A stretch of DNA of 40,288 bases from Nitrospira sp. (GTDB lineage Bacteria; Nitrospirota; Nitrospiria; Nitrospirales; Nitrospiraceae): NCBI GenBank assembly GCA_024281365.1, contig JAMXAU010000005.1, forward strand, positions 1 to 40,288. Reading direction: 5' to 3'. The position numbers and the translations under genes are program-made. Of the stretch, positions 5,060 through 40,165 are shown one piece after another. Position 1 is the first letter of the stretch. Every line of letters begins with the position of its first letter. The notes beneath the pieces are model-generated. The model ran no database searches and was not told the DNA's origin. It saw only the letters and a list, made by a program, of their open reading frames with translations.

Positions 5060-6024
5060 TGGCTGATTCCTCTCATTGGCCCGGCGGTCGGCTTTCTCAC
5101 CTTCAGGAGCGATGCCCCTTTCTTACAGAACGCTTCGACCTGATTGGCAATCTGGTGGTAGGCCTCCGCCGTAGGGGTATCAGAGTTGAAAAGCGCAAAA
5201 GGTTCTCCGGCATCCGATTGCGTAACCACGTCCGGATCGAGCGGAATTCGCCCTAGGAACGGAACCCCCATGTCGCTCGCGGAAGCTTCCCCACCGCCCT
5301 TTCTAAATACATCGATATGCGTATGGCAATGTGGACACTCAAGCCCGCTCATGTTTTCCACGATGCCGATGATGGGCACTTCACTATCCTTACAAAACGT
5401 CACTGATTTGCGCGAATCGAGCAGCGCCACTTCCTGAGGAGTTGTGACAATGACAGCGCCGCTGACCTGGCCGAGCAAGTCGATCGTGGTGACTGATTCG
5501 TTGCCGGTCCCCGGAGGAAGATCGATCAGGAGAAAATTCAGATCTTGCCAATCGACTCCGCCCAGGAGCTGATTGATGAATTCATACTTATAGGCATCTC
5601 GCCAGATAATAGGATCATCTGAGTTCTGCAACAGAAACGACATGGAGGCAATCTTTAAATTATACGCCTGGAAGGGAATAATCCCGCCAGAGGTGCTGAT
5701 CTTGAGCTTCTGTCCTTCGGCCCCGACCATCTTGGGAATATTGGGACCATGGATGTCCATATCGCAGATCCCGACATGCCATCCCTTGAGAGCCAAACTC
5801 ACCGCGATATTCGTGGTACAGGTACTCTTCCCTACACCACCCTTGTTGCTCATGATGAGTACCTTGTACTCAATCCGCTCCATCCGCTTGGCCACCAGCC
5901 AACGGCTATGCCCTTCCTTATCCTTTTGACATTGTTCTGTTTCATCACAGATGGCGCAGGCCCACATGTAGGTGCACGCATCTCCGCTTCCACTGTTATT
6001 GATCACATTGAGTTCACGAGCCAT
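5056..6024 (-). CDS. mrp: Mrp/Nbp35-type Fe-S cluster carrier ATPase
   Basis: A 322-residue P-loop ATPase of the Mrp/ApbC/Nbp35 family, which carries [4Fe-4S] clusters to apo-proteins. The deviant Walker A is KGGVGKST at residues 61-68; DMDIHGPNIPKM and LLIDLPPGTGNE follow in the expected places. Near residue 240 there is the CPHC pair that binds the bridging cluster. The N-terminus adds four cysteines (C17, C23, C26, C32), as in the Nbp35 branch, which suggests a second cluster site. The start is ATG 6024, 38 nt after the tatC stop, and the stop overlaps moeA. The context implies that it loads clusters into a Mo-dependent respiratory enzyme; that is inference. Confidence 0.93.
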   Translation of the reverse strand: MARELNVINNSGSGDACTYMWACAICDETEQCQKDKEGHSRWLVAKRMERIEYKVLIMSNKGGVGKSTCTTNIAVSLALKGWHVGICDMDIHGPNIPKMVGAEGQKLKISTSGGIIPFQAYNLKIASMSFLLQNSDDPIIWRDAYKYEFINQLLGGVDWQDLNFLLIDLPPGTGNESVTTIDLLGQVSGAVIVTTPQEVALLDSRKSVTFCKDSEVPIIGIVENMSGLECPHCHTHIDVFRKGGGEASASDMGVPFLGRIPLDPDVVTQSDAGEPFALFNSDTPTAEAYHQIANQVEAFCKKGASLLKVRKPTAGPMRGISQ

Positions 6025-8608: not shown

Positions 8609-8920
8609 ATCTGAATTCCTCCAGGATGTGACTCTTGTTCAGAGTCCTATTGGAAATAGGCCCCTACACCAGTTTAACGATCCATTTTACACTACTCGTC
8701 CGACCGGCTTCAAAGAAGAAAAGGTGCGATGACGGGCGCTGAACACAATCCGCATCAATCGGCAAGCGCGTGACACATCATTACCGTACCAGACCATCGG
8801 TATTGTAAACCAGGCCTCCGTTCGTAGCCCCGTTGCATTCATGTGAGGTTTCCAGTACCGTGACCAACAATCAGTCCTATCATGTCATGTAAGAAGACGA
8901 AGGCCTGGCAAGAGCCCAGT
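8609..8920. other. Divergent intergenic region, htrA / caspase-like lipoprotein
   Basis: About 310 nt between two divergent genes. Apart from the GGAGG ribosome-binding site and candidate promoter of htrA, I see no repeat, RNA gene or clear plus-strand promoter. An in-frame ATG for the plus gene lies at 8882, but neither it nor 8921 has a strong ribosome-binding site. Confidence 0.5.
8684..8713 (-). promoter_or_regulatory. Candidate sigma70-type promoter for htrA
   Basis: On the minus strand TTGAAG (8713-8708) is separated by 18 nt from TAAAAT (8689-8684). This gives a leader of about 70 nt before the htrA ATG at 8608. The matches are moderate, and envelope proteases are often under alternative sigma factors, so this is tentative. 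Confidence 0.35.
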
Positions 8921-10777
8921 ATGAACCGACTCCGCGATATGCGCATTCTGACAGAATCTTGGATCGGCGCCGCACTCCTCGTCCTCGCCGGCTGTGCGAC
9001 GCATCTTGAGTTTCCCCCAATGGGCACCCCTCTTGCCGCCAGTGCCAAACTGGAGACATCCTCGACCCTCAAAGACCTCACGCTTCGCTATACGAATACA
9101 TGCGGGCAACTCCAGGAAGTTCCGTTAGGGGAACGCTTACAAGACGCGTTACAGCAGGGCCTTCACCGAACCTTTGACCGTGTGATTGTGGACGGAGGAG
9201 AAACTACCGGCCCACCGGACCATGTCGTCCAGGTCGACCTCGTCGACTCGGCCTTCGACCTCAATAAAGAGGCGCTCTACGACCGCGCTCCGGCCGTCAT
9301 CCATCTCAATGCGATCGCCCGTGTCTATGACCGCACGGGAACATTGCTCCGGCAGACGGACATCGCGGTGTCCCGTCAGGAGCGGTTGCGCCTCGAACAG
9401 ATCTCGAAAAACTGCGATTACATCATTGATCCGTTCATCCAGGACACCTCGATCGACTTTGCGACCCGGGTCGCCCTCACGGCAAAGCAGGTAGCAGGAA
9501 GCTATGACAGTCTCAGTTCCACCGAGTCGACTACTCCATTACCGGGAACCCTCGCTGTGGCCCCCGCCTTGAGCCCGACACCTGCCGACCAACCAAACGG
9601 CCCTGCTGCTTCAAGCACCCTCCGATTTAAGGCGCTCTTACTCGATGAAAACAGTGACCTCTTGCTCGAAGGTGGCGAACATATTCGCGTCCGCGTCGAC
9701 ATCGTGAACACAGGATCAACCCTGGTGGAGCAGGCCTCGGCTTCTTTGAGCGGAACTCGACTCGCCCTCGAACATTTTCCCACGACCGTCTTGAGAATCC
9801 CACCGCTGCAACCGGGCCAAACCAGATCGTTGGAGTTTGTCGCCACCCTACCCCTGCTCGCACAGCCGGAACCAGCCGAAATCCGGGTGATCGTGGAAGA
9901 ACACAGTGGTGCCGCGGCCCCACCTCAAACACTGTCCTTTACGATCGCTCCGACGGGAACCAGAGGCGACGATGTCGATCAGGTATCACCCCAAGCATTA
10001 CCTGTTCAGTCCTCAGACACCTCCGTCATTGCCATCGGCCTCAGCTCGACCCTCACGCAGCAGATTCCATCACGCAAACATGCTGCCCACGATGCGGAAA
10101 CGGTCGCCAAGTACTTCCAAACGCTCGGAGGCGTACCTTCTTCCAATATCGCGCTATTGACGGACCGCAAGGCCACCTCTGCACAGATCGAGAAAACCCT
10201 GCGCGAATGGCTCCCGACTCGTTCGACGAAAGACGGAGTCGTCATTATCTATTTTTCCGGCCAAGCGATGGTCTCCCCGCGGGGAGAGGTCTTCCTCGTC
10301 CCCTATGACGGAACAAAGACCCCAACCAGTCTCTATCGTCTGAGTGCGCTGGAATCGGTCCTTGCGAAGCTCAATCCACGGCAGGCCATCTTGATCTTCG
10401 ACGGAAAGACTGCTGCCATTATCGACCAGACCAAGACACCCGCTACTCCGCGATGGGACCTTGACGGAGAGAACACGATTCGAATGATCGCCGTCGAGGG
10501 CCTTGCCACCGGAATCGATGACGACAACCATCGTCACGGACTCTTTACCTATTATTTACTGCGCGGTCTGCGCGGAGAAGCGGATACGAACCGAGATGGG
10601 AAGATCACCCTCGGAGAGGTGAGTGGATTCGTACGACAGAAAGTCGCCTGGGCATCAAAATCTCAGTTTAATGCGACTCAACGCCCGCAAATGATCCCAC
10701 TGCTGAAACCAGACGACAAAGCCGCGGACCTGGTCCTCACCACACTGCCCTCACTTGCGGCATCGGAAACGCCTTAG
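8921..10777 (+). CDS. Caspase-fold lipoprotein without catalytic dyad, C-terminal EF-hand loop
   Basis: A 618-residue predicted lipoprotein: the signal ends in the lipobox LAGC (residues 22-25). Residues about 230-330 look like an Ig-like/CARDB module (IRVRVDIVNTGSTLVEQ, LQPGQTRSLEF). Residues about 360-545 follow the peptidase C14 (caspase) pattern: HAAHDAETVAKYFQTLGG, ATSAQIEKTL, then VVIIYFSGQA and LVPYDG. The catalytic His of the usual YFSGHG is Gln (Q448), and the usual DxCxSG reads DGKTAA from D494, with Lys at the Cys position. Both catalytic residues are therefore absent. Residues 555-566 form a canonical EF-hand loop (D, N, D, K, T, E at positions 1, 3, 5, 7, 9, 12). A Ca-responsive scaffold or pseudo-enzyme is inference. 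ATGs at 8882 and 8939 are alternative starts. Confidence 0.85.
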   Translation: MNRLRDMRILTESWIGAALLVLAGCATHLEFPPMGTPLAASAKLETSSTLKDLTLRYTNTCGQLQEVPLGERLQDALQQGLHRTFDRVIVDGGETTGPPDHVVQVDLVDSAFDLNKEALYDRAPAVIHLNAIARVYDRTGTLLRQTDIAVSRQERLRLEQISKNCDYIIDPFIQDTSIDFATRVALTAKQVAGSYDSLSSTESTTPLPGTLAVAPALSPTPADQPNGPAASSTLRFKALLLDENSDLLLEGGEHIRVRVDIVNTGSTLVEQASASLSGTRLALEHFPTTVLRIPPLQPGQTRSLEFVATLPLLAQPEPAEIRVIVEEHSGAAAPPQTLSFTIAPTGTRGDDVDQVSPQALPVQSSDTSVIAIGLSSTLTQQIPSRKHAAHDAETVAKYFQTLGGVPSSNIALLTDRKATSAQIEKTLREWLPTRSTKDGVVIIYFSGQAMVSPRGEVFLVPYDGTKTPTSLYRLSALESVLAKLNPRQAILIFDGKTAAIIDQTKTPATPRWDLDGENTIRMIAVEGLATGIDDDNHRHGLFTYYLLRGLRGEADTNRDGKITLGEVSGFVRQKVAWASKSQFNATQRPQMIPLLKPDDKAADLVLTTLPSLAASETP

Positions 10778-12019: not shown

Positions 12020-13858
12020 CTACTGGCTGGTTACTTGTAAGTGAATACTCCCTGTTTCCGCCAGGGCAGGGTTGATGGTGATCGTGTACGTGTCTGTCGT
12101 GGCCAACGTCACCGTATTGAGGTTAAAGTTGGACGCGGAACTCGTCGCCCCTGCCTGCAGGACTCCACTCGGCGTATAGAGATTCACTGCCACGCTATCG
12201 AACTTATTATTGGTCGCTTTGATCGTGATCTGCTGATTGGCCGTACCGCTAAACGTGTAGCGACCACTCTGACCGGCTCGGCTGATCATGATCGGCCTCG
12301 GCGCGGCGTTGATCTTGAGCGAGTCCGACACCTCTGTAGAGAGTGTCAGCGTCATGTTGCCGGTATAGGGCCCCCCCGGACGAACAAGCACGGTATAGAC
12401 TCCGGTGGTCGGCAATGGGTTTGAAATTTCAAGTGCGCCACCTGCCGTCCCTACCGTAGTCGAGGCCAGCGGGATTCCATCCTGGCCCAACAGCGACACG
12501 CTGCTCGACGTCAGTCCTACCGCTGTGAGGCCAAGACTTACCCATTGTCCGGCATTACCATTGAACGTGTATCGTGCGGTCTTGCCTGGTTTATTCAGGC
12601 TCAGAGTCACCGGTGCTCCATCAAGCGCGAGCGTACCAGTAACGGGTGACGACAGCGCAAGGGTCATGCTGCCGGTGTTATTGCCGACCGGATCCACGAC
12701 GATCGTGTAGGCTCCTGTTTCTGGTAATGCCATGCCCGGATCCAGACTGCCGCCGCTGGAACCGATTGTGGTGGATGCCAACTTGCTGCCATCCGGTTTC
12801 AACAACGACAACGTACTCGAGGCGATTGAGACGCCGGTGAGACCAAGATTGACCCATTGGCCCGCCGACGCATTAAAGGTATACAGCGCGCGTTGACCCG
12901 GTACGGTCAATGTCGGGGTAACCGTCATCTGGTCGATCATGATATTGCCCAGGAGATCCGGAGCATTGTAGAGCGCAAGCTTTACGTTTCCGGTATAGCT
13001 TAACTCCGGATCGATCAGAACCACATACGTCCCGGAGGTCGGAAGAACTTGCGCATCGACCACCGCACCCGCATAGGCGAATGAGGTAGGCTGACCCAGG
13101 GGACTGCCATCCGGCTTGAGGATTGACACATACCCGCTTCTGATCGTCACATCGCTCAACTGCAAGCTGACCGCCTGACCGCTGTTACCGGAGAAGGTGT
13201 ACCGAGCGTTTTGCCCGGCACGGCCGATAGCAACCGGTACCGCTGAACCCTGGGGCACGATCGTACCCTCCAGCTCATGTGAAACGGTGATCGTGAAGCT
13301 TCCGGTGTAGGTGCTGAGGGGATCGAAGAAAATCGTATAGGCCCCGGTTGCCGGCAATTCCACAAGGTCTATGCTGCTGCCGTTCATCTCGCTCGAGGAG
13401 ATGGTCGCTCCTGAGTCTGCGGTAAATTGGTACGCGGTGGCAGATGTCTGGACCTGTGTCTGTGAGGAGAGTGGTCGAGTGCCCATGGTGGCATAATAGT
13501 TCCTGACGGCGGTCGGCTGTCTGGCAATCAGACTCCCATCCGGCCCATAGACCGACACCTGAAACTGTGTGAGGCTGACCGAACTAAAACCGAGATTGAT
13601 GCGTTGCCCGGCTGTGCCCTGAAAGGTCATCACGCCATTCTTGTTCGGAGTGGCAATTTTGACCGTCACGGGATCCCCACCGACGACAACACGCCCATTG
13701 TATTCGAGGTCTGCCGCCACGATAGCCGGTGGGAGGGAACCCTCTGCGGCATAAGTGATTTCTGTGGCTACACTGAACGTGATTCCCGCTGACACAAGCG
13801 CGAGCGATGCTGCTACAACTGCTACTCGGCACTGCACCCATGGACATAGGCTGCGCAT
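12020..13858 (-). CDS. Exported protein with five PPC-like beta-sandwich repeats
   Basis: A 612-residue secreted or cell-surface protein with an N-terminal signal (cleavage probably after TYAA, about residue 38). It consists of five tandem repeats of about 95-110 residues. Each opens with a YTFSGNSGQ-like strand, has a central LLKPDGS turn, and closes with LPTTGxYTxxxDP followed by YTGxMTLxL. This is the pattern of bacterial pre-peptidase C-terminal (PPC) domains. There is no attached protease domain, so it is a repeat-only protein. Binding or surface adhesion is inference. ATG 13858 has an AGGAGG site at good spacing. It stands alone as a transcription unit, with terminators on both sides. 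Confidence 0.85.
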   Translation of the reverse strand: MRSLCPWVQCRVAVVAASLALVSAGITFSVATEITYAAEGSLPPAIVAADLEYNGRVVVGGDPVTVKIATPNKNGVMTFQGTAGQRINLGFSSVSLTQFQVSVYGPDGSLIARQPTAVRNYYATMGTRPLSSQTQVQTSATAYQFTADSGATISSSEMNGSSIDLVELPATGAYTIFFDPLSTYTGSFTITVSHELEGTIVPQGSAVPVAIGRAGQNARYTFSGNSGQAVSLQLSDVTIRSGYVSILKPDGSPLGQPTSFAYAGAVVDAQVLPTSGTYVVLIDPELSYTGNVKLALYNAPDLLGNIMIDQMTVTPTLTVPGQRALYTFNASAGQWVNLGLTGVSIASSTLSLLKPDGSKLASTTIGSSGGSLDPGMALPETGAYTIVVDPVGNNTGSMTLALSSPVTGTLALDGAPVTLSLNKPGKTARYTFNGNAGQWVSLGLTAVGLTSSSVSLLGQDGIPLASTTVGTAGGALEISNPLPTTGVYTVLVRPGGPYTGNMTLTLSTEVSDSLKINAAPRPIMISRAGQSGRYTFSGTANQQITIKATNNKFDSVAVNLYTPSGVLQAGATSSASNFNLNTVTLATTDTYTITINPALAETGSIHLQVTSQ

Positions 13859-38893: not shown

Positions 38894-39325
38894 ATGGCTA
38901 TTTCATCAAAGCACACAGACGTCCGAGAAACCAACCCACTGCGGCGAACCTTGGCCGATGTTCGGCATGGACTCTTAGGCTTGCATAAAGCCCTGATTGT
39001 CGCCGAGCAACTGACCTATGAGCGGATTTATGGCCGAGTGGATTCCACTGGCCAGCTCCTCCAGCTGGTGATGAACGACCCCTGGTTTACCTGGCTCCAT
39101 CCATTATCGAACATGGTTGTCCGTATCGACGAACTGCTCGACGGACACGATCAACCAACGGTTGATGACGTCGCAATCTTATTGACGGAGATCAGAGGAC
39201 TCATTCGCCCCTCTGAACTTGGCGATGGATATGAGCGGAGTTATTATGAGGCGCTTCAGCGCGCCCCAGACGTCGTACTGGCCCACTGCGAGATAAAGAA
39301 ACTGCTGACACTCCCATCGGTATAA
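38894..39325 (+). CDS. Small cytosolic protein of unknown function
   Basis: A 143-residue soluble, helix-rich protein without signal or membrane segment. A central stretch QLVMNDPWFTWLHPLSNMVV and the following RIDELLDG have the look of a conserved core, and I believe homologues exist in other bacteria, but I cannot name a family. ATG 38894 is preferred; an in-frame ATG at 38846 would add a segment without character. Neither has a strong ribosome-binding site. A textbook terminator follows 30 nt after the stop. Confidence 0.72.
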   Translation: MAISSKHTDVRETNPLRRTLADVRHGLLGLHKALIVAEQLTYERIYGRVDSTGQLLQLVMNDPWFTWLHPLSNMVVRIDELLDGHDQPTVDDVAILLTEIRGLIRPSELGDGYERSYYEALQRAPDVVLAHCEIKKLLTLPSV

Positions 39326-39355: not shown

Positions 39356-39397
39356 GACCGCCGTCGGTCCTTTGGACCGACGGCGGTCTTGCTTTCT
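39356..39397 (+). terminator. Rho-independent terminator
   Basis: A perfect 15-bp stem, GACCGCCGTCGGTCC at 39356-39370 with GGACCGACGGCGGTC at 39374-39388, has a TTT loop and is followed by TTGCTTTCT. It ends transcription of the gene at 38894-39325. Confidence 0.88.
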
Positions 39398-39490: not shown

Positions 39491-40165
39491 ATGGCAAGAC
39501 AACGAGGGAACCGCCCTACACACAGGATACCGTTAGCCATTTCCAGCAGACACTGGGGGATTCTCCTCCTGATCATAGCTGCCCTATGCCCAAGTCATGT
39601 CTACACCCAAGGCCGCTCTGTCGATGTCCTGATCACAGTCGTAAAGGATAGGGTCGTTGCCCTACCAGGGGGCGGGAGTCCCGTTGAAGAGCCACTGGGA
39701 GTCAATGAAACGATCGTCACCGCTTCGGCTCACGGACCAGCGGGACTTGCTCAGACCACTCGCAGACTATTGGGCTTTTCTTCGGCCTTACACCGATGGA
39801 CGGAGGTGCAGCTGGGTGTCGAGGAACAGGTGGAGCAACATCAGGTATTGCCGCGCATGCTTTTGGTCCAGACCAATCGACGGGTCCATGGGTTTCAAGA
39901 AAGTCGTGGCCATTGGTTCAGCGAAGCGTTGGGACCGAATGAAACCGTTCATCAACTGCACGGGCGAGGCCATGTCGCCGTCGCGATCACGCCTGAGCGA
40001 GCCTTGGCATTTTCTGCTTTCACGGGAGGGTTCTTCTCGATTCGCTTCTCACCGAACGAGCAGGTACAGTCGATCGACCAGACACACGACGTCACCGTGG
40101 TCCGAACCACCGTCCGTCAATTGGCGTTCCGTTCACAAATCGGCCTCTGGACGGAAATGAGATAG
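39491..40165 (+). CDS. Exported tandem-repeat protein, predicted five-bladed beta-propeller
   Basis: A 224-residue protein with an N-terminal signal or anchor (about 22-39). The rest consists of tandem units of 38-39 residues: 53-90, 91-129, 130-168, 169-207 and a half unit 208-224. Each unit has an RxLxF-type strand, a W/F turn, then G-x-N/E-E-x-V (LGVNETI, LGVEEQV, LGPNETV, FSPNEQV) and a closing beta strand. The N-terminal strand VDVLITVVK (44-52) resembles the closing strand missing from the half unit, so the chain could close a five-bladed propeller. No family is recognised; function is unknown. ATG 39491 lacks a good ribosome-binding site. Confidence 0.72.
   Translation: MARQRGNRPTHRIPLAISSRHWGILLLIIAALCPSHVYTQGRSVDVLITVVKDRVVALPGGGSPVEEPLGVNETIVTASAHGPAGLAQTTRRLLGFSSALHRWTEVQLGVEEQVEQHQVLPRMLLVQTNRRVHGFQESRGHWFSEALGPNETVHQLHGRGHVAVAITPERALAFSAFTGGFFSIRFSPNEQVQSIDQTHDVTVVRTTVRQLAFRSQIGLWTEMR

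Follow-up and report, generated by a model that had tools for sequence, protein, structure and literature searches.

The gene considered here occupies positions 39491–40165 (+) of the window, i.e. the whole 40,288-nucleotide stretch of DNA that was analysed. It is an open reading frame of 224 amino acids with its stop codon at 40163–40165, and the dN/dS between orthologues (about 0.1, at most 0.17) argues that the gene is real; judged from these comparisons, it is under strong purifying selection. The first 39 codons (39491–39607, +) encode a putative signal peptide, recognised in the family alignment by a hydrophobic stretch followed by A-x-A and then Q or E. Q1 of the mature protein would directly follow the cleavage site, which is of the AxA type in most orthologues (e.g. 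AFA followed by Q); this agrees with the export proposed in an earlier note on this DNA. The resulting mature protein is a single domain of 185 residues, a length that would place it among the small natural propellers. It begins with an arm (QGRSVD; 39608–39625, +) that carries no predicted strand and whose R3 is invariant in the orthologues of the window's own group (group A, see below). Upstream lies the gene of a 143-amino-acid protein (38894–39325, +), which has no Pfam match and is syntenic in group A. The two genes are separated by a perfect 15-bp hairpin, GACCGCCGTCGGTCC, with a T-rich tail (39356–39388, +). Several orthologous loci have a hairpin in the corresponding position, with stems that have changed yet remain paired. 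The hairpin is probably a terminator of the upstream genes, so that the propeller gene is likely a transcription unit of its own.

Relatives are present in 94 of the 175 genomes of the same family (Nitrospiraceae), or in 66 of 114 if only good genomes are counted, and often there are two per genome. Since about 40% of the good genomes show no match, the propeller is dispensable. Profile searches recovered further relatives from families beyond Nitrospiraceae within its order and class, and a tree divides the proteins into group A, a paralogous group B and a sister-family group. Phyla beyond Nitrospirota were covered by a pattern-based scan of contigs only, the matches of which were titled Nitrospira or Nitrospiraceae, plus one titled uncultured Nitrosospira. 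Searches of plasmids and of viral contigs returned no relatives. Significant matches were absent from Pfam (single protein and 26 members), from NCBIfam (propeller protein) and from the sequences of the PDB (single sequence and profile); hits of a few members to Nre_C (best E 0.0011) and bPH_3 (0.0054) were attributed to chance or to a local resemblance between beta-hairpins. The TolB propeller encoded in the same window bore no likeness to the propeller protein on comparison. This is a new, unannotated family of Nitrospirota with a fold that is itself well known; the earlier note had considered an undescribed family possible. The genome of the window, a Nitrospira MAG, also holds a group B copy (G000:C162:25246-25766; L080, about 5247–5767). 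This copy is split over two reading frames, owing either to a frameshift in a pseudogene or to an error of assembly, and likewise sits behind an ABC exporter gene (L002).

The protein is built of repeats. Self-similarity of residues 41–224 is highest at a lag of 39, with a second peak at 78, and in 5,000 shuffles no lag between 15 and 79 gave a value as high as the one observed at 39, which bears out the constant unit length noticed earlier and fixes the period at exactly 39. In profile-profile comparison (hhalign, with unit profiles built from 79 relatives), units 2, 3 and 4 match each other at 93–97% probability (2-3 96%, 2-4 97%, 3-4 94%) and units 2 and 5 at 95%; unit 1 is degenerate. A repeat search of the DNA detected no 39-codon repeat, i.e. 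the repeat exists at the protein level only, and the duplication is therefore old. Insertions and deletions within units are nearly absent from the family alignment, and unit number and length hardly vary. Relatives with other unit numbers, the search for which had been recommended, were not found by a single-unit profile in 295 genomes, where an intact gene gives 3–4 unit matches and shorter matches resemble frameshifted remnants. The supposed shortness of 39-residue blades turned out to be ordinary, the typical propeller blade having 40–50 residues (PMC6805158).

Conservation follows the same period. Among 43 diverse members, T50, R53, L54, W64, W103, W181, E34, E73 and E112 are 98–100% conserved, and most full blades carry T at unit position 15, R at 18, G-F-S/Q at 21–23, L at 34 and E at 38; position 29 is W in most full blades and F in blade 4. 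The resulting blade signature reads T-x2-R-x2-G-F-x6-W-x8-E and corresponds to no family in Pfam or NCBIfam. Its glutamate, located in the loop between strands D and A (mature E34, E73, E112 and E151), is retained in 88–100% of 43 aligned relatives and corresponds to the E of the G-x-N/E-E-x-V mark that had first drawn attention to the repeat.

Models of the mature protein were computed with AlphaFold2 from alignments of group A proteins only. The run with the window protein and 21 orthologues reached a pLDDT of 93.0 and a pTM of 0.87, but only one of five models was confident; in the run with an orthologue of 72% identity (L051) as first sequence, pLDDT (93.0) and pTM (0.87) were the same, and four of the five models exceeded 82. 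Both models display 19 strands, grouped 3+4+4+4+4, whose spacing indicates the order B-C-D followed by four times A-B-C-D. The predicted turns A-B and B-C are tight, the C-D loop is short and the D-A loop is the longest, as in propellers. From the strands of both models and the conservation of the family signature, blade 1 (39626–39712, +) would comprise strands B, C and D and the D-A loop with the conserved E34, with a degenerate signature. The following blades would each comprise strands A–D: blade 2 (mature 36–74; 39713–39829, +) with T50, R53, G56-F57-S58, W64 and E73; blade 3 (mature 75–113; 39830–39946, +) with T89, G95-F96, W103 and E112; blade 4 (mature 114–152; 39947–40063, +) with T128, R131, F135, an AFTGGFF loop and E151; and blade 5 (mature 153–185; 40064–40165, +) with T167, R170, W181 and the C terminus. 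The earlier count of four full units and a half thus holds for the sequence, which contains four full 39-residue periods and a partial one, but not for the predicted strands, where a blade of three strands precedes four of four.

The recognisable matches in the PDB (Foldseek and VIA-align) are propellers, namely RCC1/UVR8, WD40, HIRA, AND-1 and the designed Tako8 and Ika4, with a best Foldseek E of 6e-7; a structural search of a viral library gave the same picture. In VIA-align, HIRA reached Z 9.2 (140 residues, 5.0 Å) and AND-1 Z 9.1 (166 residues, 7.6 Å). Since Z values of 7–8 are common, these matches are evidence of the blade architecture, not of kinship. No structural match had a TMq above 0.5, and the 50 matches listed include no known natural five-bladed propeller, which does not exclude likeness to one. 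A propeller-type fold of repeated four-stranded antiparallel blades, with the five blade units proposed at the outset, is supported by these predictions. A straight solenoid or stack, one of the outcomes that would have spoken against a propeller, is disfavoured by the propeller matches and by an idealised comparison of rmsd values.

We regard it as probable that the blades would form a closed five-bladed ring. The idealised rmsd geometry favours about five blades per turn, with a fit that is only rough. Ring closure is not proven by the superpositions, because their rmsd (5–8 Å to seven-bladed targets, 6.6–7.0 Å to the four-bladed Ika4) exceeds that of an idealised five-fold ring. The predicted lack of an inner strand in blade 1 also speaks against the ring, and the suggestion that an N-terminal strand closes it is not supported by the strand order: in both models the last blade is complete with four strands, the first lacks its innermost strand, and only a 6-residue arm without any extra strand precedes it. 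This may suggest an incomplete propeller instead, an open or strained arc of 4.75 blades whose closure would require homo-oligomerisation or a partner; it would fit the three-stranded first blade, the high-rmsd superpositions and the missing natural five-bladed target among the matches listed, and engineered five-blade WD40 fragments are known to dimerise instead of closing (PMC6805158). However, the pTM of 0.87 was obtained for a monomer, the strand pattern and unit number are near-constant in the family, as a closed unit would require, and a straight stack is the less favoured geometry in the idealised comparison. Such an arc appears unlikely to us.

Among known propellers, those of the WD40 type (HIRA and AND-1 SepB being the best by VIA) share with the family the blade architecture, the repeat length and a per-blade set of conserved polar residues with a Trp. 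WD40 and PQQ repeats both measure about 40 residues. WD40 propellers have seven blades as a rule, compared to five units here, and display no sequence match to the family. The Trp-Asp that ends strand C and by which WD40 is defined (PMC8023676) is absent, its position being taken by F-S/Q, while the conserved Trp of the family lies in strand D. PQQ-like propellers (e.g. BamB) share the repeat of about 39 residues, strands A–D, the Gly and Trp around the C-D loop, and the location in the envelope. BamB is a scaffold of outer-membrane assembly, and PQQ propellers have more blades. No Pfam PQQ model appeared among the matches of 26 members up to E = 1, and the family's invariant Arg in the B-C turn and Glu in the D-A loop are not known as features of the PQQ motif.

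Tachylectin-2 is likewise a secreted single domain with five blades of near-equal length, each of about 47 residues in contrast to 39 here. The protein might thus be a lectin that binds sugars (its own exopolysaccharide or LPS) between its blades in the manner of tachylectin-2; it is an exported single-domain propeller with equal-length blades, the periodicity would give multivalent sites, and secreted tachylectin-like families exist in bacteria (PMC8023676). However, tachylectin-2 forms its sugar pocket with a GW motif in the D-A loop (PMC8023676), a motif missing from the present family, whose loop D-A' reads L-G-x-x-E. Neither tachylectin-2 nor any other lectin yielded a sequence match or appeared among the structural matches listed, and we consider a lectin improbable.

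The strongly conserved residues are periodic and no non-periodic catalytic or metal-binding set stands out, which argues against an enzyme, while the fold together with these periodic residues suggests a scaffold. On balance we lean towards a secreted single-domain five-bladed propeller of 185 residues that acts as a binding scaffold in the envelope. The T-R-W-E set of each blade would hold the ring, taking the part of the WD40 tetrad, and the periplasmic scaffold would offer an envelope partner either the edges of its blades or its central surfaces.

Gene order may hint at the nature of this partner. In the sister family, the gene lies directly 3′ of accD-folC-lptD on the same strand, with either an overlap with lptD or a gap of at most about 45 bp (6 genomes, 3 genera). 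In group B, it follows an MsbA-like ABC exporter at 61–128 bp in 4 loci and with one extra gene in between in 2 others; the best models for this exporter are MsbA-related, with a score that falls short of MsbA's own curated cut-off. From these neighbours, a link to LPS and the outer membrane can be drawn, and it is a tentative possibility that the periplasmic scaffold binds a partner in the envelope, most likely one concerned with outer-membrane/LPS assembly. Against this link, genes other than LPS genes flank the propeller gene in group A, and in three outer genomes (G451, G281, G296) it does not adjoin lptD. LptD was found in all 14 genomes tested and LptE in 9 of 12; of the three genomes that gave no LptE match, two belong to one genus. 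The idea of a substitute for missing LptE was thereby rejected. In three of four loci, the gene directly upstream of the group B propeller encodes a conserved protein of about 380–425 amino acids with a C-terminal hydrophobic segment (L136:8461-9663 and relatives in L098, L134 and L138), for one member of which Pfam and NCBIfam gave no match.

In group A, the propeller gene stands downstream of a conserved block encoding a coiled-coil protein, an AAA+ ATPase, an NlpC/P60 lipoprotein and the 143-amino-acid protein. The group A propeller could hence be a subunit of another envelope machine together with the ATPase, the lipoprotein and the 143-amino-acid protein, a neighbourhood retained in most group A loci. 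The hairpin terminator between gene and block counts against this, and the flanking genes differ in another genus of the family (g14), which means that the arrangement may be plain synteny; we hold such a machine to be doubtful. The scaffold remains our preferred reading. In its most specific form, that of Nitrospirota-specific minimal five-bladed propellers with a T-R-W-E blade code, a three-stranded non-velcro closing blade and a dedicated accessory role in the periplasm for both LPS export and assembly, we would give it little credence.

The data add an unannotated, well conserved family of exported propellers in bacteria of the nitrogen cycle (nitrite-oxidising Nitrospira), and offer a case for comparison with designed and tachylectin-type five-bladed propellers. 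If the link to lptD and MsbA is true, the family would represent a new periplasmic factor that takes part in assembling the outer membrane outside the Proteobacteria.

Two further genes of the window may be mentioned. Positions 12020–13858 (−) encode a secreted protein of 612 amino acids with repeated PPC (pre-peptidase C-terminal) domains, in which no peptidase domain was found, and positions 8882–10777 (+) encode a lipoprotein-like protein of 631 amino acids with a caspase (Peptidase_C14) domain.
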